Position numbers and translations under genes: made by a program. Shown here piece by piece: positions 1-59,828 of a stretch of 64,000 nt of DNA. Under the pieces are notes generated by a model, which made no database searches, was not told the DNA's origin, and saw only the letters and a program-made list of their open reading frames with translations. Position 1 is the stretch's first letter, and the number at the start of each line of letters is the position of its first letter. The stretch spans positions 62,001-126,000 of the forward strand of contig NZ_WMBB01000001.1 of NCBI RefSeq assembly GCF_009708175.1, written 5' to 3'. The stretch is from Nocardia aurantiaca. GTDB lineage: Bacteria > Actinomycetota > Actinomycetes > Mycobacteriales > Mycobacteriaceae.

Positions 1-2
1 TC

Positions 3-1418
3 ATCTTCTCCGTGCTGACGGTCATCGGCATCACGGTGATGGGTGGCTATTACGTCAAGGTGCCGGCCATGTTCGGCATCGGGCGCTACGGCGTGACCGT
101 GCGGCTGCCGGCCACCGGCGGGCTGTACGAGCACGCCAACGTCGCCTACCGCGGCACCAATGTCGGCAAGGTGCAAGACGTCATCCTGACCCCGGCCGGC
201 GTGGACGCGAAGCTGTCCATCGACAGCGATTACAAGATCCCGCAGGACGTCGACGCCTGGGTGCGCAGCGTGTCCGCGGTGGGTGAGCAGTACGTCGATC
301 TGGTTCCGGTCGATAATCCCAAGGGCGGCAATCTGTCCGACGGTTCGGTGATCCCGGTCGAGCGCACCAAGCTCCCGCAGGATGTCGGCAGCCTGCTCGA
401 TCAGACCGACCGGCTGCTGAACAGTGTCGCCGACACCAAGCTGAAGCAGGTCATCGACGACGCCTTCACCGCGTTCAACGGCGCGGGACCGGACCTGCAG
501 CGCTTCCTCGACTCCGCGACCCTGCTGGTGCAGGAGGCGAAGAACAACACCGACGCCACCAAGGACCTGATCGAGAAGATCGGCCCACTGCTGGACACGC
601 AGGTCAAGTCCGACGACGCCATCCGCGGCTGGACCAAGGATCTGGCGACGGTCACCGACCAGCTGCGCGAGCATGATCCCGCACTGCGCAACGTCGTCGA
701 GAAGACGCCGGGTGCGGTCTCTCGGGCGACCCAGCTCTTCCAGGATCTGAAGCCCACGCTGCCGTTGCTCGCGCGCAATCTGGTGAGCGTCGGCCAGGTC
801 GGCTACACCTACAACCCCGGCATCGAGCAGCTGCTCGTGATCTTTCCGCCGCTCATCGCGGGTCTGCTGACCGTCGCGACCGGCGGGCCCACCGAGTACG
901 GCGCGATGGTGGACTTCATGGTCAGCGTCAATGATCCACAGGGCTGCACGACCGGGTTCCTCACCCCGGACCAGCGCCGCTCGCCGGCGTTGCTGGACCA
1001 CCCGGACACCCCGAAGGGTTTGTACTGCAAGGTTTCCCAGAACGCCCCGCAGGCGGTCCGCGGTATTCGCAATACGCCGTGCATGGAGGTTCCCGGCAAG
1101 CGCGCGCCCACGCCCGAATTGTGCCGTGACAGCGAGGGTTACGTGCCCGAGGGCGACAACCCGCCGTTCGGTAAGCCGAATCCGGTGGACAAGGACGGGA
1201 ACCCGACCAGCGGCACTGCGCCGAGCTCCTACACCACCCCGTCCAGCGCATCCACCGAGGCCCAGCCCGCATCCGTCCAGACCCAGCCGTACGATCCGCG
1301 CACGGGTGAATTCCTCGGACCGGACGGACGCACGTATCGTCAGGCGAACATCGACAGCAAGGGTTCCGGGGTAGTCCCGGCTACTTTGACAGCAATGGTC
1401 CAGGAGCAGGTGAAATGA
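3..1418 (+). CDS. MCE family protein, MceF-like (5' end outside window)
   Basis: Cell-envelope subunit of an Mce lipid importer. The frame is open to the left edge, with codons in frame before the first GTG at 12, so the N-terminus is missing and the visible sequence begins in a hydrophobic anchor. An MCE domain follows, seen as GGLYEHANVAYRGTNVGKV and VSAVGEQYVDLVP. Next comes a long helical region (about residues 120-260) and a Pro/Ser/Thr-rich tail ending YDPRTGEFLGPDGRTY. No lipobox is visible. Its place as the last mce gene, followed by two mce-associated genes with 4-nt overlaps, suggests the F position. Which mce locus this is cannot be told. Confidence 0.88.
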   Translation: MFSVLTVIGITVMGGYYVKVPAMFGIGRYGVTVRLPATGGLYEHANVAYRGTNVGKVQDVILTPAGVDAKLSIDSDYKIPQDVDAWVRSVSAVGEQYVDLVPVDNPKGGNLSDGSVIPVERTKLPQDVGSLLDQTDRLLNSVADTKLKQVIDDAFTAFNGAGPDLQRFLDSATLLVQEAKNNTDATKDLIEKIGPLLDTQVKSDDAIRGWTKDLATVTDQLREHDPALRNVVEKTPGAVSRATQLFQDLKPTLPLLARNLVSVGQVGYTYNPGIEQLLVIFPPLIAGLLTVATGGPTEYGAMVDFMVSVNDPQGCTTGFLTPDQRRSPALLDHPDTPKGLYCKVSQNAPQAVRGIRNTPCMEVPGKRAPTPELCRDSEGYVPEGDNPPFGKPNPVDKDGNPTSGTAPSSYTTPSSASTEAQPASVQTQPYDPRTGEFLGPDGRTYRQANIDSKGSGVVPATLTAMVQEQVK

Positions 1419-2236
1419 GCGATTCGAGTGTGGTGAGAAACCGGACACGACGGCGGGCTGTGCGCTCGGAAGGGCCCCCGCCGGAGGAGAAGGGGACCGC
1501 CGCACCGGCGTTCGAGGCCACCGTGCCCGCACCGGACAAGGTGGGCGCTGCCGAAGCCGTACAGGCGGATGGCGGCGTCATCGCGCCGAACGCGGAGTCG
1601 GCCGACGACTCGGCGCCGGTGGAGGTGACCGGGTGGGGCGACGTCCCCACCGCGGACGCGAAGCCGTCGGACTCCCCGCAGGAGTCCGCCGAGGACGCCG
1701 TGACCGCTGCTCCCGAATCCGAAGCGCCCGCAGTCGCTTCGGCCGACGGTGGCAGCCTCTGGATGCGAGTCGTCGCGGTCGCCGCCCTGGTGCTCGCCGT
1801 GGTCGTGGTGGGTGGCACCGTATGGGCCGCGCACCAGCGCAGCACGCTCTCCGATCAGGACGCGCTGCGCGCGGACTACGTGCAGGCCGCCAAACAGGCC
1901 ATGCTCAACATCACCAATATCAGCGCAGACACCGCCCAGGACGACATCAACCGGGTGCTCGCGGTGACCTCCGGCGATCTCCAGAAGGAGTACACCGACC
2001 GTAAGGACGACTACGCGGGCATCGTGCAGAAGGCTCAGGTCCGGGCCAAGGGCGAGGTCGTCGAGGCCGCTCTGCAGTCTTCCGACGACCACTCCGCGAT
2101 CGTGCTCGTCGCGGTCAAGCAGACGCTCACCAATGCGGGCGTGGACGGACCGCAGCAGCGGCAGTACCGATTCAAGGTGACGCTGTCCCGGGACGACAAG
2201 GGCATCACCGCGACCGGAATGGAGATGACGGTATGA
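1415..2236 (+). CDS. Mce-associated membrane protein
   Basis: 273 aa. The ATG overlaps the stop of the mceF-like gene (ATGA), so the two are translationally coupled. The first ~115 residues are acidic, Ala/Pro/Glu-rich and probably disordered. A single membrane segment lies at about residues 118-138, followed by an extracytoplasmic domain of ~130 residues with the SDTAQDDINRVLAVTSGDL-type helix typical of proteins encoded just after mceF. Such proteins are thought to stabilise or couple Mce complexes; that role is family knowledge, not visible here. Confidence 0.8.
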   Translation: MSDSSVVRNRTRRRAVRSEGPPPEEKGTAAPAFEATVPAPDKVGAAEAVQADGGVIAPNAESADDSAPVEVTGWGDVPTADAKPSDSPQESAEDAVTAAPESEAPAVASADGGSLWMRVVAVAALVLAVVVVGGTVWAAHQRSTLSDQDALRADYVQAAKQAMLNITNISADTAQDDINRVLAVTSGDLQKEYTDRKDDYAGIVQKAQVRAKGEVVEAALQSSDDHSAIVLVAVKQTLTNAGVDGPQQRQYRFKVTLSRDDKGITATGMEMTV

Positions 2237-2724
2237 GCAAGCGCCGGCGCGATCTGATACTCATGGTCTCTGCCCTCGTCGTATTCGCCGCCGCCCTCGG
2301 CGTCGGCGGCTGGATCGGCTACGGCTACTGGCAGGACAGCCACGTCGACAAGGCCCGCGAGCGGTCCGTCGTGGTGGCCAAGCGGACCGTGGAGGGCATG
2401 TTCGGCTACAACTTCCGGACCATCGACACCACCATGCCCAAGGTGTGCGACGACATGACCTCGACCTTCCGCAACGACTGGATGAAGGTCACCAATACCG
2501 TCCTCGCGCCCGCCGCGAAGGAGAAGGAACTCGTCGTCGAAGCCACCGCCGTGGAAACCGGTGTGATCAAGGCGGATTCGAAGCACGTCGAGGTCATGGT
2601 CTACCTGAACCAGAAGAGCGCGGGCAAGGATCCGTCCAAGGGCACCTACGACGCGAGTCGGCTGCGTGTGAAGCTGGACGACAGCGATGGCCGCTGGCTC
2701 GTATCGGACGTCAACCCGATCTGA
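2233..2724 (+). CDS. Mce-associated membrane protein, short
   Basis: 163 aa, again starting in an ATGA overlap with the preceding gene. One N-terminal membrane anchor (residues ~9-31) is followed by an extracytoplasmic domain resembling that of its upstream neighbour. The two are probably diverged paralogues, as commonly found in pairs at the end of mce operons. It is the last gene of the operon: a hairpin follows and the next gene is convergent. Confidence 0.78.
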   Translation: MSKRRRDLILMVSALVVFAAALGVGGWIGYGYWQDSHVDKARERSVVVAKRTVEGMFGYNFRTIDTTMPKVCDDMTSTFRNDWMKVTNTVLAPAAKEKELVVEATAVETGVIKADSKHVEVMVYLNQKSAGKDPSKGTYDASRLRVKLDDSDGRWLVSDVNPI

Positions 2725-2840: not shown

Positions 2841-3860
2841 TCAGCGATCGAATCCATGTTCACCGAGCCACTCGATCATGGCATCGAATCCATCGACGCC
2901 GTTCAGCTCATGCGCGATGCTGTGGCCCGCGCCGGCCTGAACGTACGTACTGGGCACCGCTTGGGGGCTGAAGTACATCCGCTGCGTCTCCCGCACGGTC
3001 GCCGCGTCACACGATCGATGCTCGGGCGGGGTGCAGAAGAGCCAATCGTGCTCGCCGACCACCAGAAGTGTCGGCACCGCAATAGGATTCATGATCTGCG
3101 CGAGTGTCACCGTGGTGGGCGTCGCGATTTCGCCGACCGTGTCGGTCCCACGACGCCGATCATCCGCGGCGAGGACCTCCGGGTCGACATTGTCCGGTTG
3201 GTAGAAGATCGCCATGCCGCCGGGCCGCATCGTCAGATAGCCGGGCGGGATCGGTTGTCCGTCCGCGTAATTCGCCGACGTGTGTCGTGCCAGCAGTTCG
3301 GTGGACGGGAGCAGTCCGGGCATATTCATCCAACCGGTGCCGATGATTCCGTCGACATCGCGATAGGTCGCCGCCTCCAGTTCGGTCACGACGGTTCCGA
3401 AGGAATGGCCGACGGTGACGATTCGCGACCAGGGGTTCACCAAGTCGCCGCGGCGTGCCGCCTGGACGATCTGGTGGAGGACGTCCGCATTGGACAGCGC
3501 CGTGACATCGGTCCCCGCCGGGCGGGCGCTGCGGCCGGAGCCGATGCGGTCGATGGCGAGGGTGGAGTATCCCTCCGCGGCGGCACGCCGCACGTAGGAA
3601 TAGCGCTTGTCGAATTCTGGTGGATCCCAATAGAAATGGTCATAAATGAGGCCGTGCACCAGCACCTGCAGGGTGGCCGACGGACCGGCGTCGGGGTTGC
3701 AGAGCCGGCCGTACACGGTGTACGCGGACCCGGCCACCGTGACCGGGATATCCATATCGCGGCAGGCCGAGCCGGTATCGGCATTCGCGTTCCCCGGCAC
3801 CATCAGGCCTGCCAGCATTGCGGCGCTCGCGACCGCGATTCGTCCCCACCCCGACTTCAC
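2841..3860 (-). CDS. exported alpha/beta hydrolase
   Basis: 339 aa from a GTG at 3860, chosen because GGGAGG stands just upstream and the N-terminus then reads as a signal peptide (VKSGWGRIAVASAAMLAGLM...GNANA). The frame is open further upstream but without a ribosome site. Alpha/beta hydrolase fold with nucleophile elbow GHSFG, a later GEHDW acid region and AGHSIAHE as the histidine. Probably a secreted esterase or lipase; substrate unknown. A KstR-type operator lies 55 bp upstream of the start, suggesting control with lipid or sterol genes. Confidence 0.8.
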   Translation of the reverse strand: MKSGWGRIAVASAAMLAGLMVPGNANADTGSACRDMDIPVTVAGSAYTVYGRLCNPDAGPSATLQVLVHGLIYDHFYWDPPEFDKRYSYVRRAAAEGYSTLAIDRIGSGRSARPAGTDVTALSNADVLHQIVQAARRGDLVNPWSRIVTVGHSFGTVVTELEAATYRDVDGIIGTGWMNMPGLLPSTELLARHTSANYADGQPIPPGYLTMRPGGMAIFYQPDNVDPEVLAADDRRRGTDTVGEIATPTTVTLAQIMNPIAVPTLLVVGEHDWLFCTPPEHRSCDAATVRETQRMYFSPQAVPSTYVQAGAGHSIAHELNGVDGFDAMIEWLGEHGFDR

Positions 3861-3915: not shown

Positions 3916-3929
3916 TGTAACACGTTCTA
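3916..3929. promoter_or_regulatory. KstR-type operator
   Basis: TGTAACACGTTCTA fits the TnnAACnnGTTnnA palindrome published for KstR, the TetR-family repressor of sterol and lipid catabolism in mycobacteria and rhodococci. It lies in the 139-bp gap between the acyl-CoA synthetase stop and the hydrolase start, so it would control the hydrolase. The sequence match is seen; the regulator's identity is inferred. Confidence 0.6.
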
Positions 3930-3999
3930 CACGCGTGGATTCGATGGTCCGTCAACCGCGATCTGCGGGACCGGGCGGGCCGGAATCCGCCGTGTGCGG

Positions 4000-5511
4000 T
4001 CATCGGCGCGAAGACAGTTCGCGCAACCGGTGTTTGAGGACCTTTCCGCTCGCGGAGATCGGCAGGGCGTCGATGAAGTCGATTCCGCGCGGTACCTTGT
4101 AGCCGGCCAGCCGCACCGCCACATGGTTCCTGAGTTCATCGGGAGTGACCGGCATGGTGGGCCGCGGTACCACGAACGCGTGCACCCGTTCGCCCCACAG
4201 GTCGTCAGGTAGGCCGATCACGGCGCACGATGACACGGCCGGATGGGTGGCCAGGGCAGCCTCCACCTCACCGGAGTAGACGTTCTCGCCACCGGTGATG
4301 ATCATGTCCTTGATGCGGTCCACGATGTAGATGAAGCCGTCGTCGTCCATGGATGCCGCATCGCCGGTGTGAAACCAGTTCTCCCGTAGCACTTCCGCGG
4401 TCTCCGCCGGGCGATTGAAGTAACCCCGCATGACGCCGTCGCCGCGCACGGCGAGCTCCCCGACCCGGCCGCGTGGAAGTTCATTCCCGGCGGGATCCAC
4501 AATGCGCGCCTCGCACTGCGGTACCGCGCGCCCGGCCGAGCGCAGTCGTCGCCCGCCCACGCGGTGATCGTTGCGGGTCAATGCGGTAACGATCGCTGTT
4601 TCGGTGGTGCCGTAACCCTGGACGAATCCCGCGGTGGGAAAGGCCTTCGCGGATCGCTCCAGCAGGTCCGGTGTGATCGGAGCGGCGCCGTAGCCGAGAG
4701 CCCACAGGCTGCTGGTGTCGAACGCGTCGAAGCCAGGGTGGTCGAGCAGCATTCGCAGCATGGTCGGGACGAGGGTCAGGCTGGTGACCCGGTGCTGTTC
4801 GATCGCTCGCAGCACCGCGGGCGGATCGAACGAGGGCAGGAATACCACGGTGCCGCCCAGATAGAGCTGAGTCAGCCAGCACGACAGCGCCGCGATATGG
4901 AACATGGGCGCGGTGAGCAGTGAGGTGCCGCCCGCGAAGGCGGTGTCATGACTGATCGCCGATGTCATCAGATTTCGATGAGTCATCAGCACGCCCTTGG
5001 CCGACCCGGTGGTGCCACTGGTGTACAACAGCGATGCCGGTGTTTGCTCGCCGATCCGCATATCCGCGACCGGTCGAGCTGCGCCGATGCCCTCTTCGTA
5101 GCTCGACATACCCGTCGGCGCCGCGCCATCTCCGCAGTACACGACATGGCGCCGGTGGGCGGTGAGGACTTCGGCCGCGGTGTCCGCGGTGGTGTCGTCG
5201 ACCAGTAGCACCCGAGGCTCCGCGTCACGAAGCGCATGCGCGATTTCGCCCGCACTCCAGCGGATATTGAGTGGATTGACGACGGCGCCGCACCACCACG
5301 CGGCCAGGAACGTCTCATGGTAACGATCGGAATTCCGCGCGAGGATGGCGACCCGGTCCCCGGTCTGGACGCCGAGTTCTCGAAACACACTGGCGAGTCG
5401 AGAGACTCGGTGGAATACCTCCCGAGTCGTCCGTGTCCGGTCCCCGGAGATCGTCATCGGCAGGTCGGGTGTCTGTTGTAGTGCGCGATGCAGGGATTGA
5501 GTCAGATACAT
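4000..5511 (-). CDS. AMP-dependent acyl-CoA synthetase (FadD-like)
   Basis: 503 aa from the ATG at 5511, preceded by AAAGG. Activates a carboxylic acid as acyl-AMP and then acyl-CoA. All adenylate-forming motifs are present: YTSGTTGSAKG (163-173), GYGTTETA (299-306), the TGD and DRIKD hinge region (382-402), GGENVYSGEVE, and the catalytic lysine K490 in SASGKVLK. Length and layout are those of medium/long-chain FadD enzymes. It is divergent from the hydrolase-SDR fusion gene across a control region carrying a KstR-type operator. Substrate not predictable. Confidence 0.87.
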   Translation of the reverse strand: MYLTQSLHRALQQTPDLPMTISGDRTRTTREVFHRVSRLASVFRELGVQTGDRVAILARNSDRYHETFLAAWWCGAVVNPLNIRWSAGEIAHALRDAEPRVLLVDDTTADTAAEVLTAHRRHVVYCGDGAAPTGMSSYEEGIGAARPVADMRIGEQTPASLLYTSGTTGSAKGVLMTHRNLMTSAISHDTAFAGGTSLLTAPMFHIAALSCWLTQLYLGGTVVFLPSFDPPAVLRAIEQHRVTSLTLVPTMLRMLLDHPGFDAFDTSSLWALGYGAAPITPDLLERSAKAFPTAGFVQGYGTTETAIVTALTRNDHRVGGRRLRSAGRAVPQCEARIVDPAGNELPRGRVGELAVRGDGVMRGYFNRPAETAEVLRENWFHTGDAASMDDDGFIYIVDRIKDMIITGGENVYSGEVEAALATHPAVSSCAVIGLPDDLWGERVHAFVVPRPTMPVTPDELRNHVAVRLAGYKVPRGIDFIDALPISASGKVLKHRLRELSSRR

Positions 5512-5687
5512 TGCGGTCGATTGCCTTTCGAGCCACAGTTGAACTGGTGAATTGCAGCGGCTCGGAATGGGCTGGCGATGTGAGGGATGCATCGAGGCCT
5601 GGTACGGGCGGGTAATGAAAACCGCAGGGCCACTGCGCGTTTGATTACACCATCCCGTGAGTTCGTCGGCAAGGTGAGCGATCGGCC

Positions 5688-5701
5688 GTGATGTACGTCA
5701 C
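5688..5701. promoter_or_regulatory. CRP/GlxR-like palindrome
   Basis: GTGATGTACGTCAC fits GTGAnnnnnnTCAC, the core of actinobacterial Crp/GlxR sites. It lies 12 bp from the KstR-type operator in the control region between the divergent synthetase and hydrolase-SDR genes. Confidence 0.4.
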
Positions 5702-5712
5702 TATGTGTTGCT

Positions 5713-5726
5713 TGGAACATGTTCTA
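5713..5726. promoter_or_regulatory. KstR-type operator
   Basis: TGGAACATGTTCTA is a perfect TnnAACnnGTTnnA palindrome, 62 bp upstream of the hydrolase-SDR start and 202 bp upstream of the divergent acyl-CoA synthetase start. Placed to act on the plus-strand operon and possibly on both sides. Confidence 0.65.
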
Positions 5727-5787: not shown

Positions 5788-7743
5788 ATGCTTTCTATTT
5801 TTGATGCGCAGAAATCCGATCTGCGCGCATCGAAGGCTCTGGCGGCCATGCGTAATGGCCTCGAAATCGTCCGTTATGGGAAACTGCGCGGCGGCAACGA
5901 GCCGACTCCATACGAAGTGGTGGAACGGCGGCCGATGTATCGGTTGCGTCGTTATTCCGTTCCTGAGAGCTCGGACACGGCGAATCGCCCTGCGGTGCTG
6001 ATGATCCCGGCCCTCATGCTGACGGCGGATCTCTACGATCTCGATGCCGAAGATGGCGCGGTGGCGATGCTCGGCGCGGCCGGTGTCGACCCGTGGGTGA
6101 TCGACTTCGGCTCGCCGGCACACGAGGAAGGCGGCTGGCAGCGAGACATCGCCGACCATGTATTGGCGGTCAGCGATGCCATCGACACGGTGAGTCGGGT
6201 GACCGGCCGTGACGTGCACCTGCTCGGCTGGTCGCAGGGTGGCATGTTCGCCTATCAAGCCGCTGCCTACCGGCGTGGCACGGGGGTGGCCGGCATCATC
6301 ACCTGCGGCAGTCCGGTCGACACCGACTCGGCGGGGCTGCCGTGGCGGGTGTCACCGGAGGTGCTGGTGCGGACCGCCGACTTCCTGGCCGACCGGGTCG
6401 TCAGCCGGATGCGTGTCAGCGACCGGACCCTGCGCATGTGGTTCAAATTGCTGGACCCGGTGGGAAATGCGCAGCGGCGACTCGCATTTCTCCGACAATT
6501 GCACGACCGCGAGGCATTGCTGCCCGATGAGCGCCGGCGGCGCTTTCTCGCGAAGGATGGATGGGTCGGGTATCCGGGTCCGGCCATCGCGGACCTGCTG
6601 CGGCAGTTCGTGGCGGACAACAGTCTGCTGTCGGGCAGTTTCGTACTTCGCGACCGCCTTGTCACGCTGTCGGCTCTGACCTGCCCGATCCTCGCCATCG
6701 CCGGCAAGTACGACACCATCGGCACCCCGACGGCGGTGCGTGCGATCGGCCGGTCGGCGCGGCAGGCGAGGGTGTACGAAATCGAGGCCGTGGCAAGCCA
6801 TTTCGGTTTGGTGGCCGGCAGCGGTGCGGTCAACGTCACCTGGCCGGCCGCCGCTGCCTGGATCAACTGGATCGATGGCGACGGGGCTCGTCCGGCCGGC
6901 ATTCGTGACGTCGCCGCCACCTCATCGCAGTCGGCTCCCGACAGCGTGGAGCGGCACGGCGGTGCGCTGTCCGGGCGGCATGTCCTGATCACCGGCGGCT
7001 CGTCGGGCATCGGCCGGGCCACGGCGCTGGCCGCGGCGGCCGAAGGCGCCACCGTGCTGCTGATCGCGCGCCGCGGCCCCGAACTCGAGCAGGTGGTCGG
7101 CAACATTCGAGACGGCGGCGGCGACTCGTACGGTTATCAGTGCGACATCACCGATTCCGAATCGGTCGAACTCGTCGTCAAGGCGATTCTCGACGAGCAC
7201 GGCAAGGTCGACATGCTGGTCAACAATGCCGGCAGGTCGATTCGGCGACCACTGCATCTGTCGACCGAACGCCTGCACGACTTCGAACGCACCATGGCGG
7301 TCAACTACTTCGGTGCATTGCGAATGACGTTGGCCTTCTTGCCGCAGATGCGGGAACGCCGATTCGGGCACATCGTCAACGTCAGCACCGGTGCCGTACA
7401 GGCGGGTGTGCCGCGATTCTCGGCGTATCTGGCCAGCAAGGCGGCTCTGAACAAGTTCTCGGAGGTCGCGGCGGCGGAAACGCTCGCCGACGGCATCACC
7501 TTCACCACCGTCCATATGCCGCTCGTCGATACGCCGATGATCGCTCCGAACGATTACCGGGCCTTCAAGGTTCGAACACCCGAATGGGCCGCCGGCCAGA
7601 TTCTGAAGGCACTGGTCGACCGCCCCAAACGAATCACGATGACGAAGGCGGCGCTGTGGGAGACCTGGGGATTGGTGGCGCCCCGGCAGAAGGATCGAAT
7701 GATGAATCGGCGTTTTCTCGACTCGTTCGACAGCACACACTGA
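5788..7743 (+). CDS. fusion of PhaC/lipase-like alpha/beta hydrolase and short-chain dehydrogenase
   Basis: 651 aa. The ATG at 5788 follows a GGGGG/GGTGG stretch; an ATG at 5719 is in frame but lies inside the operator, so it was rejected. Residues ~40-380 are an alpha/beta hydrolase of the PHA-synthase-like type with nucleophile S149 in GWSQG (serine, not the cysteine of true PHA synthases), then AGKYDTIG and ASHFG. Residues ~392-651 are a classical SDR: TGGSSGIG cofactor loop, NNAG, and YLASK active site near residue 547. The pairing suggests acyl or keto-lipid processing in two steps. Followed within 40 bp by a related SDR gene. Confidence 0.85.
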   Translation: MLSIFDAQKSDLRASKALAAMRNGLEIVRYGKLRGGNEPTPYEVVERRPMYRLRRYSVPESSDTANRPAVLMIPALMLTADLYDLDAEDGAVAMLGAAGVDPWVIDFGSPAHEEGGWQRDIADHVLAVSDAIDTVSRVTGRDVHLLGWSQGGMFAYQAAAYRRGTGVAGIITCGSPVDTDSAGLPWRVSPEVLVRTADFLADRVVSRMRVSDRTLRMWFKLLDPVGNAQRRLAFLRQLHDREALLPDERRRRFLAKDGWVGYPGPAIADLLRQFVADNSLLSGSFVLRDRLVTLSALTCPILAIAGKYDTIGTPTAVRAIGRSARQARVYEIEAVASHFGLVAGSGAVNVTWPAAAAWINWIDGDGARPAGIRDVAATSSQSAPDSVERHGGALSGRHVLITGGSSGIGRATALAAAAEGATVLLIARRGPELEQVVGNIRDGGGDSYGYQCDITDSESVELVVKAILDEHGKVDMLVNNAGRSIRRPLHLSTERLHDFERTMAVNYFGALRMTLAFLPQMRERRFGHIVNVSTGAVQAGVPRFSAYLASKAALNKFSEVAAAETLADGITFTTVHMPLVDTPMIAPNDYRAFKVRTPEWAAGQILKALVDRPKRITMTKAALWETWGLVAPRQKDRMMNRRFLDSFDSTH

Positions 7744-7783: not shown

Positions 7784-8734
7784 GTGAGTCTCGACAGGTA
7801 CCGCGCGCTCATGGCGTGGGTGAACGAAGGACGATTCGGCCCCTGGGCGCCGGCGATCCAATCCGGAATCGTCCGGTGGCTCTTCGAGGCGCGCAGTCAC
7901 CGCGGGCGTCGGCCGGGGCGAGCCGCGGCACAGGTCACCGAGATCGCGGGCCGGCGAATCCTGATCACCGGTGGGTCGTCCGGAATCGGCCGGGCGACGG
8001 CGCTGCGGTTGGCGGGACTCGGAGCCGACGTGGTCGTCGTGGCCCGCAGATCCGCGGAGCTGCAGGAACTCTGCGACGAGATCGTCCGGACAGGCGGCCG
8101 GGCCGCGGCCATCGCGTGCGACCTGACCGACGAGGCCGCGGTCGCCGGTCTCTCCGAGCGGTTGATCGCTGAGTGGGGCGGTGTCGACGTCTTGATCAAT
8201 AACGCCGGTCGTTCGATTCGTCGCAGCGTGGTCGAGACGTTGGGGCGCCATGCGGACGAGCTGCCCGAGAACTCGCGGCTCCTACACGATTTCGAGCGCA
8301 CGATGGCGGTCAATTACTTCGGCGCCATCGCGCTCACGCTCCGCCTGCTGCCGACGATGCTGGCGAGCGGGGGAGGGCACATCGTGAATGTCGGCACGGC
8401 CGGCGTGCAGATCGGGACGATGCCCAAGTTCTCGGCCTACGGCGGGTCGAAGGCCGCGCTGGTCGCGTTCGGTCGCAGCTTGGATACCGAATTGAGCGGC
8501 CGTGGAATCACGGTGACCGCGGTGCATTATCCGCTGGTACAGACACCCATGATCGGTGGCACCGAAAACTACAGAGGATTGCCCGCGCTGACACCGGAAG
8601 AGGCCGCGGAGTGGCTGGTGACGGCGATCCGGACCAGACCGGTCGCAGTGTATCCACGCTTCGCCGGAATCCTGCGGGCTCTCGGCACCCTATCGCCCCG
8701 GTGGGCCGATCGTATGGTCCTGGCGGCGGCCTGA
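7784..8734 (+). CDS. short-chain dehydrogenase/reductase
   Basis: 316 aa from the GTG at 7784, preceded by GAGG with good spacing; an in-frame ATG at 7751 has no clear ribosome site. About 50 residues precede a classical SDR fold: TGGSSGIG, NNAG, YGGSK. The stretch HDFERTMAVNYFGA is shared exactly with the SDR half of the upstream fusion, so the two are probably products of a local duplication. Probably co-transcribed with it. Substrate unknown, likely a lipid keto or hydroxy group by context. Confidence 0.85.
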   Translation: MSLDRYRALMAWVNEGRFGPWAPAIQSGIVRWLFEARSHRGRRPGRAAAQVTEIAGRRILITGGSSGIGRATALRLAGLGADVVVVARRSAELQELCDEIVRTGGRAAAIACDLTDEAAVAGLSERLIAEWGGVDVLINNAGRSIRRSVVETLGRHADELPENSRLLHDFERTMAVNYFGAIALTLRLLPTMLASGGGHIVNVGTAGVQIGTMPKFSAYGGSKAALVAFGRSLDTELSGRGITVTAVHYPLVQTPMIGGTENYRGLPALTPEEAAEWLVTAIRTRPVAVYPRFAGILRALGTLSPRWADRMVLAAA

Positions 8735-8847: not shown

Positions 8848-9795
8848 GTGGGTAGCTCAACGACGCCGTGGACCGCCGACAACATACCGGATCTCCACGG
8901 TCGCACCGCGATTGTCACGGGGGCCAGCGCGGGGCTTGGGCTGGAGACCGCGCGGCGGCTGGCCGAGCACGGGGCCCAGGTGGTGCTGGCCTGCAGGAAT
9001 GCCGAGAAGGCCGCGGCGGCAGCCGAAGTCATCCGAGGGAGTGCGCCCGATGCCGAATTGCCGTTCGTCGAGCTGGATCTGGCATCGCAGGAGTCGGTGC
9101 GCAAGGCCGCGGTACGGCTGCACGACGACTTCGACCGGATCGATCTGCTGGTGAACAATGCGGGGACGTTGAACCGGGAGCGGTCGGTGACGGCGGATGG
9201 GTTCGAGACCACCTTCGCGACAAATCATTTGGGGCCGTTCGCGTTCACCGGGCTGGTGCTGGATCTGCTGCAGGCCGCGCCGCAGGGGCGAGTGGTGACG
9301 GTCTCGAGTGGTTCGCCGTCGCAGCGGGGGACCTCGTTCGAGCTCGACGACCTGTTCTACGAGCGACGCAAGTACAAGGCGCTGGCGGTTTACGCCCAGT
9401 CCAAGTTGGCCAATGCGCTGTTCGCGTTCGAGCTGCAGCGGCGGCTCAACGGGACCGGGTCCAGGCTGATCTCGGTCGGGGTGCATCCGGGGGCGGCGGA
9501 GTCGGACTTCGCCCAGAATCTCGGTCCCGCGGTGGCTTTCCTGTCGCGGCCGCAGATACGGTGGGTGTTCCGGGTCTTCATGCAGACCGTCGAGATGGGG
9601 GCGCTGCCGGCGCTGCGCGCGGCCACCGATCCCGGTGTGCGCGGCGGGGAGTTCTTCGGGCCCAGCGGTGTCAGCAAGGGGTATCCGGTCGAGAACCAGG
9701 CGGGGGAGCAGGCCCGCGATCCGGAGCTGGCGGCGAAGTTGTGGGCAGAGTCCGAACGGCTCACCGAGGTCACCTACCGGTTCGAGGACGCTTAG
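8848..9795 (+). CDS. short-chain dehydrogenase, retinol-dehydrogenase-like
   Basis: 315 aa from a GTG with CAGGA upstream. NAD(P)-dependent oxidoreductase of the family that includes protochlorophyllide and retinol dehydrogenase-like SDRs: TGASAGLG cofactor loop, LACRN after beta-2 (NADP preference), NNAGTLN, and YAQSK active site. It is more distant from the two preceding SDRs than they are from each other. The 113-bp gap before it could hold its own promoter. A strong bidirectional terminator follows. Confidence 0.85.
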   Translation: MGSSTTPWTADNIPDLHGRTAIVTGASAGLGLETARRLAEHGAQVVLACRNAEKAAAAAEVIRGSAPDAELPFVELDLASQESVRKAAVRLHDDFDRIDLLVNNAGTLNRERSVTADGFETTFATNHLGPFAFTGLVLDLLQAAPQGRVVTVSSGSPSQRGTSFELDDLFYERRKYKALAVYAQSKLANALFAFELQRRLNGTGSRLISVGVHPGAAESDFAQNLGPAVAFLSRPQIRWVFRVFMQTVEMGALPALRAATDPGVRGGEFFGPSGVSKGYPVENQAGEQARDPELAAKLWAESERLTEVTYRFEDA

Positions 9796-9852: not shown

Positions 9853-11334
9853 TCAGCGGCTCACGTCCGGATCCACATCGTCGTCGGACAGCAGTGCGCT
9901 GCCCGCCACCCGGTCGGTGGCCAGGGCGTCGAGGAAGGCGCGCGCCCAGCGGTCGACGTCATGGGAGAGAACCTGACGCCGCAGGGAGCGCATGCGGCGG
10001 CGACGGGTGTCGCGGTCGTCGTCGATCGCGCCGATCAGGGCGTCCTTGACGCTGTCGAGGTCATGCGGGTTGCACAGGTAGGCCTGCCGCAATTCCGCCG
10101 CCGCACCGGTGAATTCGCTCAGCACCAGCGCGCCGTTGAGGCTGCCCTGGCAGGCCACGTACTCCTTGGCGACCAGGTTCATGCCGTCGCGCAGCGGGGT
10201 CACCACCATGACGTCGGCGGCCACGAAGAACGCGATGAGCTCGTCGCGCGGGATCGGGCGGTGCAGGTAATGCACCACCGGATAGCCCACCCGGGAGAAC
10301 TCGCCATTGATCCGACCCACCTGGCGCTCGATATCGCCGCGCATCTGCTTGTAGGACTCGACTCGCTCGCGGCTCGGCGTGGCCAGCTGCACCATCACCG
10401 TGTCCGCCGGATCGACCCGACCGTCGTGCAGGAGTTCCTCCAGCGCGGCCAGCCGGATGTCGATGCCCTTGGTGTAGTCCAGGCGGTCCACACCCAGCAG
10501 GATCGTCTTCGGATTGCCCAGCTCCGCACGGATTTTCGCGGCACGCTCCCGCACGCTGCGGCGGCGCGAGTACTCGTCCAGCTCCGTGGAGGTGATCGAG
10601 ATCGGGAATGCGCCCACCCGCACGGTGCGGAAACCCACCTGCACCACACCGAGTTTCGAGCGGACACCCACATTACCGCGCGAAGTCGGCTGTCCCGCCA
10701 GCCTTCTGGCCAGGTACAGGAAATTCTGCGCGCCGCCGGGCAGGTGGAAGCCGATCAGGTCGGCGCCCAGCAGGCCCTCGACGATTTCGGTGCGCCACGG
10801 CATCTGCATGAACAGTTCCACCGGCGGGAACGGAATGTGCAGGAAGAAGCCGATGGTCAGGTCCGGGCGCAGCATGCGCAGCATCTTGGGCACCAGCTGC
10901 AGCTGGTAGTCCTGCACCCACACCGTCGCGCCCTCGGCGGCCACCTTGGCGGTGTACTCGGCGAAGCGGCGGTTCACCTGCACATACGCCTGCCACCACT
11001 GGCGGTCGTAGACCGGCCGCACGATCACGTCGTGATACAGCGGCCACAGCGTCGCGTTGGAGAAGCCCTCGTAGTAGTCGGCGACCTCATCGCCCGACAG
11101 CGGCACCGGATGCAGTTCCAGACCGTCCTCGACGATCGGATCCAGATCCACATCGGGCACGCCGGCCCAGCCGACCCAGGCGCCCTTGTTATTGCGCAAC
11201 ACCGGTTCCAGCGCGGTCACCAGGCCGCCGGGGCTGCGCTTCCAGCGGGTGGTCCCATCGGGTAGTCGCTCCAGGTCGACCGGAAGCCGGTTGGCGACGA
11301 CGACGAAACCGGAGCCGGAGCTATCCGGGTGCAC
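9853..11334 (-). CDS. otsA: alpha,alpha-trehalose-phosphate synthase
   Basis: 493 aa, GTG start. GT20 glycosyltransferase making trehalose 6-phosphate from a nucleotide-glucose donor and glucose 6-phosphate. Recognisable landmarks are NRLPV at the N-terminus, [19 protein letters not shown] and [10 protein letters not shown], all in the usual order and at full length. Trehalose is both a compatible solute and the head group of trehalose mycolates in these bacteria. The start lies 3 nt after the stop of a small upstream gene, so the two are probably coupled. No otsB (phosphatase) is next to it. Confidence 0.95.
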
Positions 11335-58901: not shown

Positions 58902-59828
58902 ATGGTGGAACGGGTTTTGGTGACACTCGACGGCGTGATCCGGGATCCGGACGCGCCGTTGTTGTATGCGGACGATATCGGCGTACTGCGTGGCGACGGC
59001 ATCTTCGAGACGGTGCTGGTGCGCGGCGGCGTGCCCTGTGCGCTGGAGTTGCATCTGGCGCGGCTGCGGCGGTCGGCGGAGGCCCTCGAATTGCCCGCGC
59101 CGGATCTGGACGCGTGGCGGTTCGCGGTGGAGTCGGCCGCCGAGCAGTGGGGTAGCGAGCGCGAGGGCACGCTGCGCATGGTGCTCACCCGGGGGCGTGA
59201 CGGCGATCATGGAAGGGGTGGTGAACGAACGGCTGTCAAGGGCGGGGATCTGGCCGGGGCCGAACCGGTGACGACCGGTTTCGTTTACGTGGTTCCGGTG
59301 CCCGAGCGCGTGAAAAAAGCTCGCACCGAGGGTGTTTCGGTGATCACGCTCTCACGCGGCATCTCCATCGATCTGGCGCAGAACGCGCCATGGCTGCTGC
59401 TGGGCGCGAAAACCCTGTCCTACGCGACGAATATGTCCGCGCTGCGGTTCGCCCAGCGCATGGGCGCCGACGATGTCATCTTCACCAGCACCGAGCATCG
59501 CGTGCTGGAGGGCCCGCGCTCGACAGTCGTTGTGCAGCGCGGGAATCAGCTCATCACCCCGCCCGCGCGCAATGGCGTGCTGCCCGGCACCACACAGCGG
59601 GCGCTGTTCGCGCAGGCGGAGAAGGCGGGCTGGGAGTGCCGGTACGAGCAGCTGTTCACCGCGGATCTGATCACCGCCGACGCGGTCTGGATGCTGTCCT
59701 CGATCACGCTGGCCGCGCGGGTCAATTCCCTGGACGGACTGCGCATGTCGGCGCCCGACAACGCCGAGGAGATCGTGGACATGGTGAATCGCGGGATCAC
59801 CCTGCCGGGGAGTCTCGCGGACTGGTGA
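58902..59828 (+). CDS. pabC: 4-amino-4-deoxychorismate lyase
   Basis: 308 aa from the ATG at 58902. Fold type IV PLP enzyme giving 4-aminobenzoate for folate: DDIGVLRGDGIFETVLVRGG, RMVLTRGRDG, catalytic lysine in LLLGAKTLSYATNMSALR, DDVIFTSTEHRVLEGPRSTV, LPGTTQRALF. An apparent loop of ~25 residues after LTRGRDG (HGRGGERTAVKGGDLAGAE) looks longer than usual. Same place as Rv0812. Its folate link matches the THF-binding YgfZ next door. Confidence 0.9.
   Translation: MVERVLVTLDGVIRDPDAPLLYADDIGVLRGDGIFETVLVRGGVPCALELHLARLRRSAEALELPAPDLDAWRFAVESAAEQWGSEREGTLRMVLTRGRDGDHGRGGERTAVKGGDLAGAEPVTTGFVYVVPVPERVKKARTEGVSVITLSRGISIDLAQNAPWLLLGAKTLSYATNMSALRFAQRMGADDVIFTSTEHRVLEGPRSTVVVQRGNQLITPPARNGVLPGTTQRALFAQAEKAGWECRYEQLFTADLITADAVWMLSSITLAARVNSLDGLRMSAPDNAEEIVDMVNRGITLPGSLADW

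Follow-up and report, generated by a model that had tools for sequence, protein, structure and literature searches.

Genes and KstR-type sites beside a mce4-type operon

The stretch of DNA analysed here, called the window throughout, spans 64 kb and corresponds to C11:62001-126000 of the Nocardia aurantiaca genome. The yrbE/mce genes at its start continue from the upstream flank, where genes for a steroid 3-ketoacyl-CoA thiolase (NF005889 over cut-off) and a P450 lie just before the window begins. This flank also carries genes for an F420_Rv3520c-type enzyme (TIGR03559 over cut-off), an acyl-CoA synthetase (NF005863 over cut-off), an SDR (NF005862 over cut-off) and a small ferredoxin-like protein, as well as acyl-CoA-dehydrogenase-like genes, in an order that we take to match the mce4-containing cholesterol cluster of mycobacteria. 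Four genes, here called the module, lie between the last mas gene of the mce4-type operon and a gene that we presume from its sequence to be otsA; they code for a hydrolase, an acyl-CoA synthetase (FadD), a hydrolase-SDR fusion and a further SDR, termed SDR2 (Table 1).

Because the adjacent mce4-type operon ends the classical cholesterol cluster, the module is located at the edge of that cluster. The initial annotation had correctly noticed that an mce operon, now seen to be of the mce4 type, ends next door. Its placing of a sterol module apart from the classical genes is ruled out, since the module directly abuts mce4 at the end of the classical cluster.

Table 1. Features from the mce4-type operon to otsA, in window coordinates
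Feature	Position	Strand	Basis or remark
mce4-type operon end: mceF (to 1418) and two mas-type genes	1..2724	+	Family profiles
Alpha/beta hydrolase, StnA-like, probably exported	2841..3860	-	Pfam Abhydrolase_6 over cut-off
KstR-type operator 1	3916..3929		TGTAACACGTTCTA; exact consensus match; 20.2 bits
Acyl-CoA synthetase (FadD)	4000..5511	-	AMP-binding; NF004837 490 bits
KstR-type operator 2	5713..5726		TGGAACATGTTCTA; exact consensus match; 20.0 bits
Fusion: PHA-synthase-like hydrolase domain and SDR domain	5788..7743	+	Family profiles; structure match
SDR2, start uncertain (7751 or 7784)	7784..8734	+	adh_short; kept beside the fusion in G052
SDR3, neighbour, without a site of its own	8848..9795	+	NF004846 over cut-off
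otsA, conserved right border	9853..11334	-	Gene order in relatives

The consensus TnnAACnnGTTnnA, which fixes eight bases, has exactly two matches in the window, operators 1 and 2. Both had originally been described as perfect. They are so in the sense of an exact fit to the consensus, but neither is a perfect palindrome, as the arms differ at two positions in site 1 and at one position in site 2. The accompanying estimate that well under one such site should occur per window was borne out by 100 dinucleotide shuffles of the window, which gave a mean of 0.10 matches; at least two matches arose in 1 of the 100.

Sites were scored with a matrix of 18 positions built from 46 of the 47 M. smegmatis and M. 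tuberculosis KstR sites given in Table 3 of PMC1995591, the EMSA-negative Rv0223c site having been dropped. Operators 1 and 2 obtain the two highest scores in the window, and matches of at least 13 bits are expected 0.064 times per 64 kb of simulated sequence. The next match, at window positions 58906-58919 (GGTGGAACGGGTTTTGGT with flanks), scores 12.9 bits and does not fit the strict consensus. Read on the minus strand, 18 bases at operator 1, TAGAACGTGTTACATTTC, are identical to the published Rv3515c/Rv3516 site, which is listed as EMSA-positive in PMC1995591 and is itself among the matrix sites. Published KstR sites score between 18.4 and 32.5 bits under this matrix (median 26.0), so operators 1 and 2 are credible KstR sites but below average. 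That both scores fall towards the bottom of this range counts against the KstR reading.

The coordinates place both sites in intergenic DNA, as had been proposed. Operator 1 occupies the gap that separates the 3' end of fadD from the exported hydrolase gene, 55 bp from the start used here for the latter (3860), and operator 2 lies between the divergent fadD and fusion genes, at distances of 201 bp and 61 bp, respectively. An operator is thus found upstream of the hydrolase, fusion and fadD genes, and SDR2 follows closely behind the fusion gene, with which it probably forms one operon. The two sites do not bracket the cluster, as the initial annotation had put it; they flank fadD only. A distance of 201 bp is long for an operator, which is a point against the pairing of operator 2 with fadD. 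KstR2 was rejected as the source of operator identity, its published motif AnCAAGnnCTTGnT being unlike either site. A promoter scan, which is not informative here, found no sigma-70-like site.

KstR and its candidate sites across the genome

The whole genome (7,375,147 bases) contains 75 matches to TnnAACnnGTTnnA, versus 15 for the reversed pattern. With this many real matches, two per 64-kb window are not unusual by themselves, and it is their placement that matters. Sixty of the 75 sites were placed relative to genes (nine in C11:1-80000 and 51 elsewhere); the other 15 are without the TAGAAC half-site used for placing. Genes were called with a custom script that gives approximate borders, and three sites taken as extragenic overlap a called start (C9:121633, C11:726153 and C22:627589).

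Only 12 of the 60 placed sites fall inside a called gene (1 of 9 in C11:1-80000 and 11 of 51 elsewhere). The 11 of these that were scored reach at most 9.5 bits, and the twelfth, at C11:44564, is not among the matches of at least 8 bits. Among the 40 extragenic sites outside C11:1-80000, 37 score at least 10.6 bits and 29 at least 19.0 bits, and the remaining three are low (-9.7, 1.1 and 4.0 bits). The initial annotation had named random scatter of the motif in coding DNA as the outcome that would speak against its proposal. Such scatter is ruled out on the 60 of 75 sites that were placed, with no intragenic site reaching 10 bits.

Sites of this type adjoin several genes of steroid metabolism. 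They precede several operons of the cholesterol cluster, with a 26.4-bit match directly before the first yrbE gene, and they adjoin genes for the steroid thiolase, a 3-oxosteroid 1-dehydrogenase (NF005882 over cut-off), HsaA-like and HsaD-like proteins (both below the family cut-off), a protein with a KshA_C domain, and KstR itself. Matches at C11:2293, 42532 and 54455 (23.0, 23.1 and 26.4 bits, respectively) are missed by the strict TnnAACnnGTTnnA pattern. The existence of strong matches of this kind means that 75 is an undercount of KstR-type sites. At C22:458787-459015 (L036), three KstR-type sites occur within about 230 bp, between a gene for a GMC oxidoreductase and a divergent gene.

The genome encodes a single clear KstR orthologue (C22:605241-605888), which matches M. 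tuberculosis KstR chain 5ua2 at E 4e-82. A KstR-type site lies between kstR and a divergent gene for a protein of 698 aa. Each of the five relatives searched has one KstR match at E up to 1e-20, at 88-98% identity.

Distribution of the module and its sites in the genus

The fusion gene is rare. Among 148 genus genomes, one relative of the full-length protein was found (G052, 69% identical), and with the present genome included the full-length fusion occurs in 2 of 150 genus genomes. A search of 397 genomes of the order and 396 of the phylum, with three candidates scored per genome among the matches listed, returned the present genome alone at E up to 1e-150. In named genome contigs, the search yielded four loci, whose matches are confined to the SDR part and whose bins carry proteobacterial names.

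In G052 the module is found at the same locus but is rearranged relative to the present genome, with the order mas, SDR2, fusion, fadD, site, two-component system, otsA, and with SDR2, fusion and fadD all on one strand. Identities are 61% for SDR2, 66% and 77% for the two parts of the fusion, and 70% for FadD. The G052 site, TAGAACATGTTCTA, lies 183 bp before fadD, compared with 201 bp in the present genome. When the fadD upstream regions of the two genomes are aligned, the longest conserved block is the 12 bases TAGAACATGTTC, which lie within the operator. The two-component system of G052 (L093:14493-16687) comprises a histidine kinase and a response regulator, as judged by Pfam, and lies between the site and otsA, where the present genome has SDR3. 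This footprint of fadD, fusion and SDR2 is backed by G052 as the one other genome, which counts against the KstR reading.

Presence of the sites follows presence of the module. Both mas-otsA intervals that contain the module carry sites of at least 20 bits, whereas all 12 intervals lacking the module are free of any matrix match above 8.3 bits. This count (n=14) omits G099 (L102), which has otsA on the opposite side, G024 (L094), the contig of which starts within the interval, and L096, L097, L098, L099 and L108, which have no mas-otsA interval; L104 and L106 show a rearrangement at the otsA end itself. SDR3 stands beside mas in six fetched relatives that have neither module nor site, and we take it to be an older resident of the locus. 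At L094:77-330 of G024, beside mas, a 19.6-bit KstR-type site runs straight into a 3' remnant of the exported hydrolase gene. This reads as a deletion scar of the module, although the contig end may mislead.

The exported hydrolase has relatives that are not part of this locus. Its four closest (51-61% identical) sit elsewhere, and two of them have an upstream site (22.5 bits in G106 and 20.7 bits in G049), while the other two, in G071 (3.0 bits) and G059 (-4.5 bits), have none, a further point against the KstR reading. More distant relatives (37-43% identical) showed an upstream site in 0 of 20 cases, the best score being 0.3 bits; this set holds 20 of the 22 matches that rank after the four closest, with G076:C36 and G084 left out. 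The site therefore follows part of the close clade and not the whole hydrolase family.

Enzymes, regulator and a proposed role

The matrix scores, the enrichment of sites across the genome, the steroid genes adjoining other sites, the single KstR orthologue and the retention of the operators in relatives together make regulation of the module by KstR highly probable on sequence grounds. The earlier idea of a sterol- or lipid-responsive module with KstR-type operators is thus well supported as regards control and fails as regards separation from the classical genes. What emerges looks like a new, rare and accessory member of the known KstR regulon, and a local extension of it.

The KstR-rich region of mycobacteria is given as extending from Rv3492c to Rv3574 (Kendall et al. 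2007, PMC1995591). The present locus shares with that regulon the operator consensus, an orthologous repressor and the mce4/cholesterol region, and differs from it, judging by position, in having four module genes just beyond the Rv3492c-equivalent border. Titles and abstract openings in the open-licence literature yielded no description of the module and no KstR-controlled lipase or hydrolase, and no paper linking mce4 to a cholesteryl ester hydrolase was found in that literature. The literature basis also includes PMC3068626, PMC3388012, PMC4482099 and PMC7807495.

The hydrolase is probably exported, to judge from an N-terminal hydrophobic stretch. It matches StnA chains 5hdf/5hdp at E 5e-39, and S153, D272 and H313, in the expected Ser-Asp-His pattern, are invariant in five of five sequences. 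StnA, a family relative in which this pattern is kept, is described as the streptonigrin methylesterase and acts on an antibiotic precursor (PMC5225493), whereas the module hydrolase has a KstR-type site and adjoins mce4. FadD exceeds the cut-off of the long-chain-fatty-acid--CoA ligase family NF004837 (cut-off 476 bits) but fails that of the steroid-24-oyl-CoA synthetase family NF052580 (317 bits, cut-off 750), which counts against the reading preferred below.

The fusion is the least conventional of the four proteins. Its N-terminal domain matches PHA synthase (9knj, E 6e-13) as a relative and is akin to the N-terminal part of an acyl-CoA synthetase of about 990 aa that is present in most genus genomes among the matches listed. 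All 14 of the hydrolase domains compared share S149, D309 and H338. The likeness to the hydrolase-FadD protein of about 990 aa (NF005898, PRK07868) amounts to 53-58% identity with 12 aligned relatives and is confined to the shared N-terminal part (513 bits, cut-off 925); the fusion differs in that its C-terminal partner is an SDR, with FadD encoded by a gene of its own next door. The SDR domain of the fusion shares 59% identity with an SDR at C11:623581 and 55% with the C-terminal region of a reductase-like protein of 675 aa at C2:2211. The latter passes NF005539, a family that we take to be FCR1-type, while the fusion stays below its cut-off (370-373 bits, cut-off 549) and matches the C-terminal part of the model only. 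Since the tie between NF005539 and FCR1 is our own assumption, and a control search with this family gave a match in 0 of 14 well-known genomes, reductase activity of the fusion is put forward only as an inference. M. tuberculosis FCR1 and FCR2 are described as reducing acyl-CoA to aldehyde and alcohol (PMC3522743). One of the two, by size and layout as given there, resembles the fusion, the SDR-type reductase making up the C-terminal portion of a protein of roughly 650 aa; the fusion differs in having a PHA-synthase-like hydrolase as the N-terminal partner. For SDR2, no solved-structure match was found at E up to 1e-25.

On balance we consider it likely that both sites are operators for the host KstR, and that through them an accessory lipid module shares the sterol-released repression of the adjacent mce4, for ester-lipid salvage. 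Binding, repression and the chemistry of the module, as outlined here, are what we infer from these features. Operator 1 would serve the exported esterase gene, and operator 2 both the fusion-SDR2 transcript and, probably, fadD. KstR would block the module promoters as long as inducer is absent. Sterol side-chain intermediates are the inducer of KstR. As they accumulate, KstR would leave the DNA and the module would be made together with Mce4. The exported enzyme may then cleave ester lipids present alongside sterols, steryl esters for example, while Mce4 would import the sterol and FadD would activate the freed acids. The fusion and SDR2 might hydrolyse acyl thioesters or reduce them towards aldehyde or alcohol. 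Salvage of ester lipids beside Mce4 is perhaps the role of the module, a proposal reached by reasoning from its setting. A narrower version, in which the esterase frees sterol for Mce4 while FadD and the fusion divert acyl groups into reduced storage lipids, so that the whole is a steryl-ester salvage unit, is rather unlikely.

A serious competitor, with somewhat less than an even chance, is that KstR controls the module for a purpose other than ester salvage, such as making or altering an envelope or storage lipid, or processing a steroid side product, and that the link to growth on sterols is one of timing alone. FadD and SDR are both broad families, StnA, the nearest relative of the hydrolase with a solved structure, is a methylesterase from an antibiotic pathway, and the SDR domain of the fusion resembles the organism's own 675-aa reductase-like protein. 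The acyl-CoA reductases of M. tuberculosis, moreover, are described as making wax esters (PMC3522743). Against this, the hydrolase's own site and the adjacent sterol importer weakly favour sterol-linked uptake.

It is very unlikely that another TetR-family regulator with a near-identical operator controls the module. Such proteins are numerous in the genome (59 matches at E up to 0.001), and behind a weaker site of the same type (C22:454544) there is a TetR gene. The two sites, however, fall within the score range of published KstR sites and group with the sites beside steroid genes, and the next TetR relative of KstR in the genome is merely 33% identical (E 2.6e-12). Still less probable is that the sites are chance matches or functionless relics, as their low-end scores, patchy presence and the apparent scar in G024 might suggest, given the 0.10 matches expected per window, the 12-base operator block kept in an otherwise diverged G052 upstream region, and the presence of sites with the module and their absence without it.

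Under the preferred reading of KstR control, a well-studied sterol regulon would gain concrete, testable lipid enzymes right next to the sterol importer. Should the exported enzyme cleave steryl esters, a step upstream of Mce4 would come under the same switch. In G052, G059, G106 and G024, about 94-100 kb separate the kstR gene itself from the mas gene, both being on one contig. In the present genome kstR (C22) and mas (C11) are on different contigs, an arrangement that would fit this spacing were the end of C22 to adjoin the beginning of C11.
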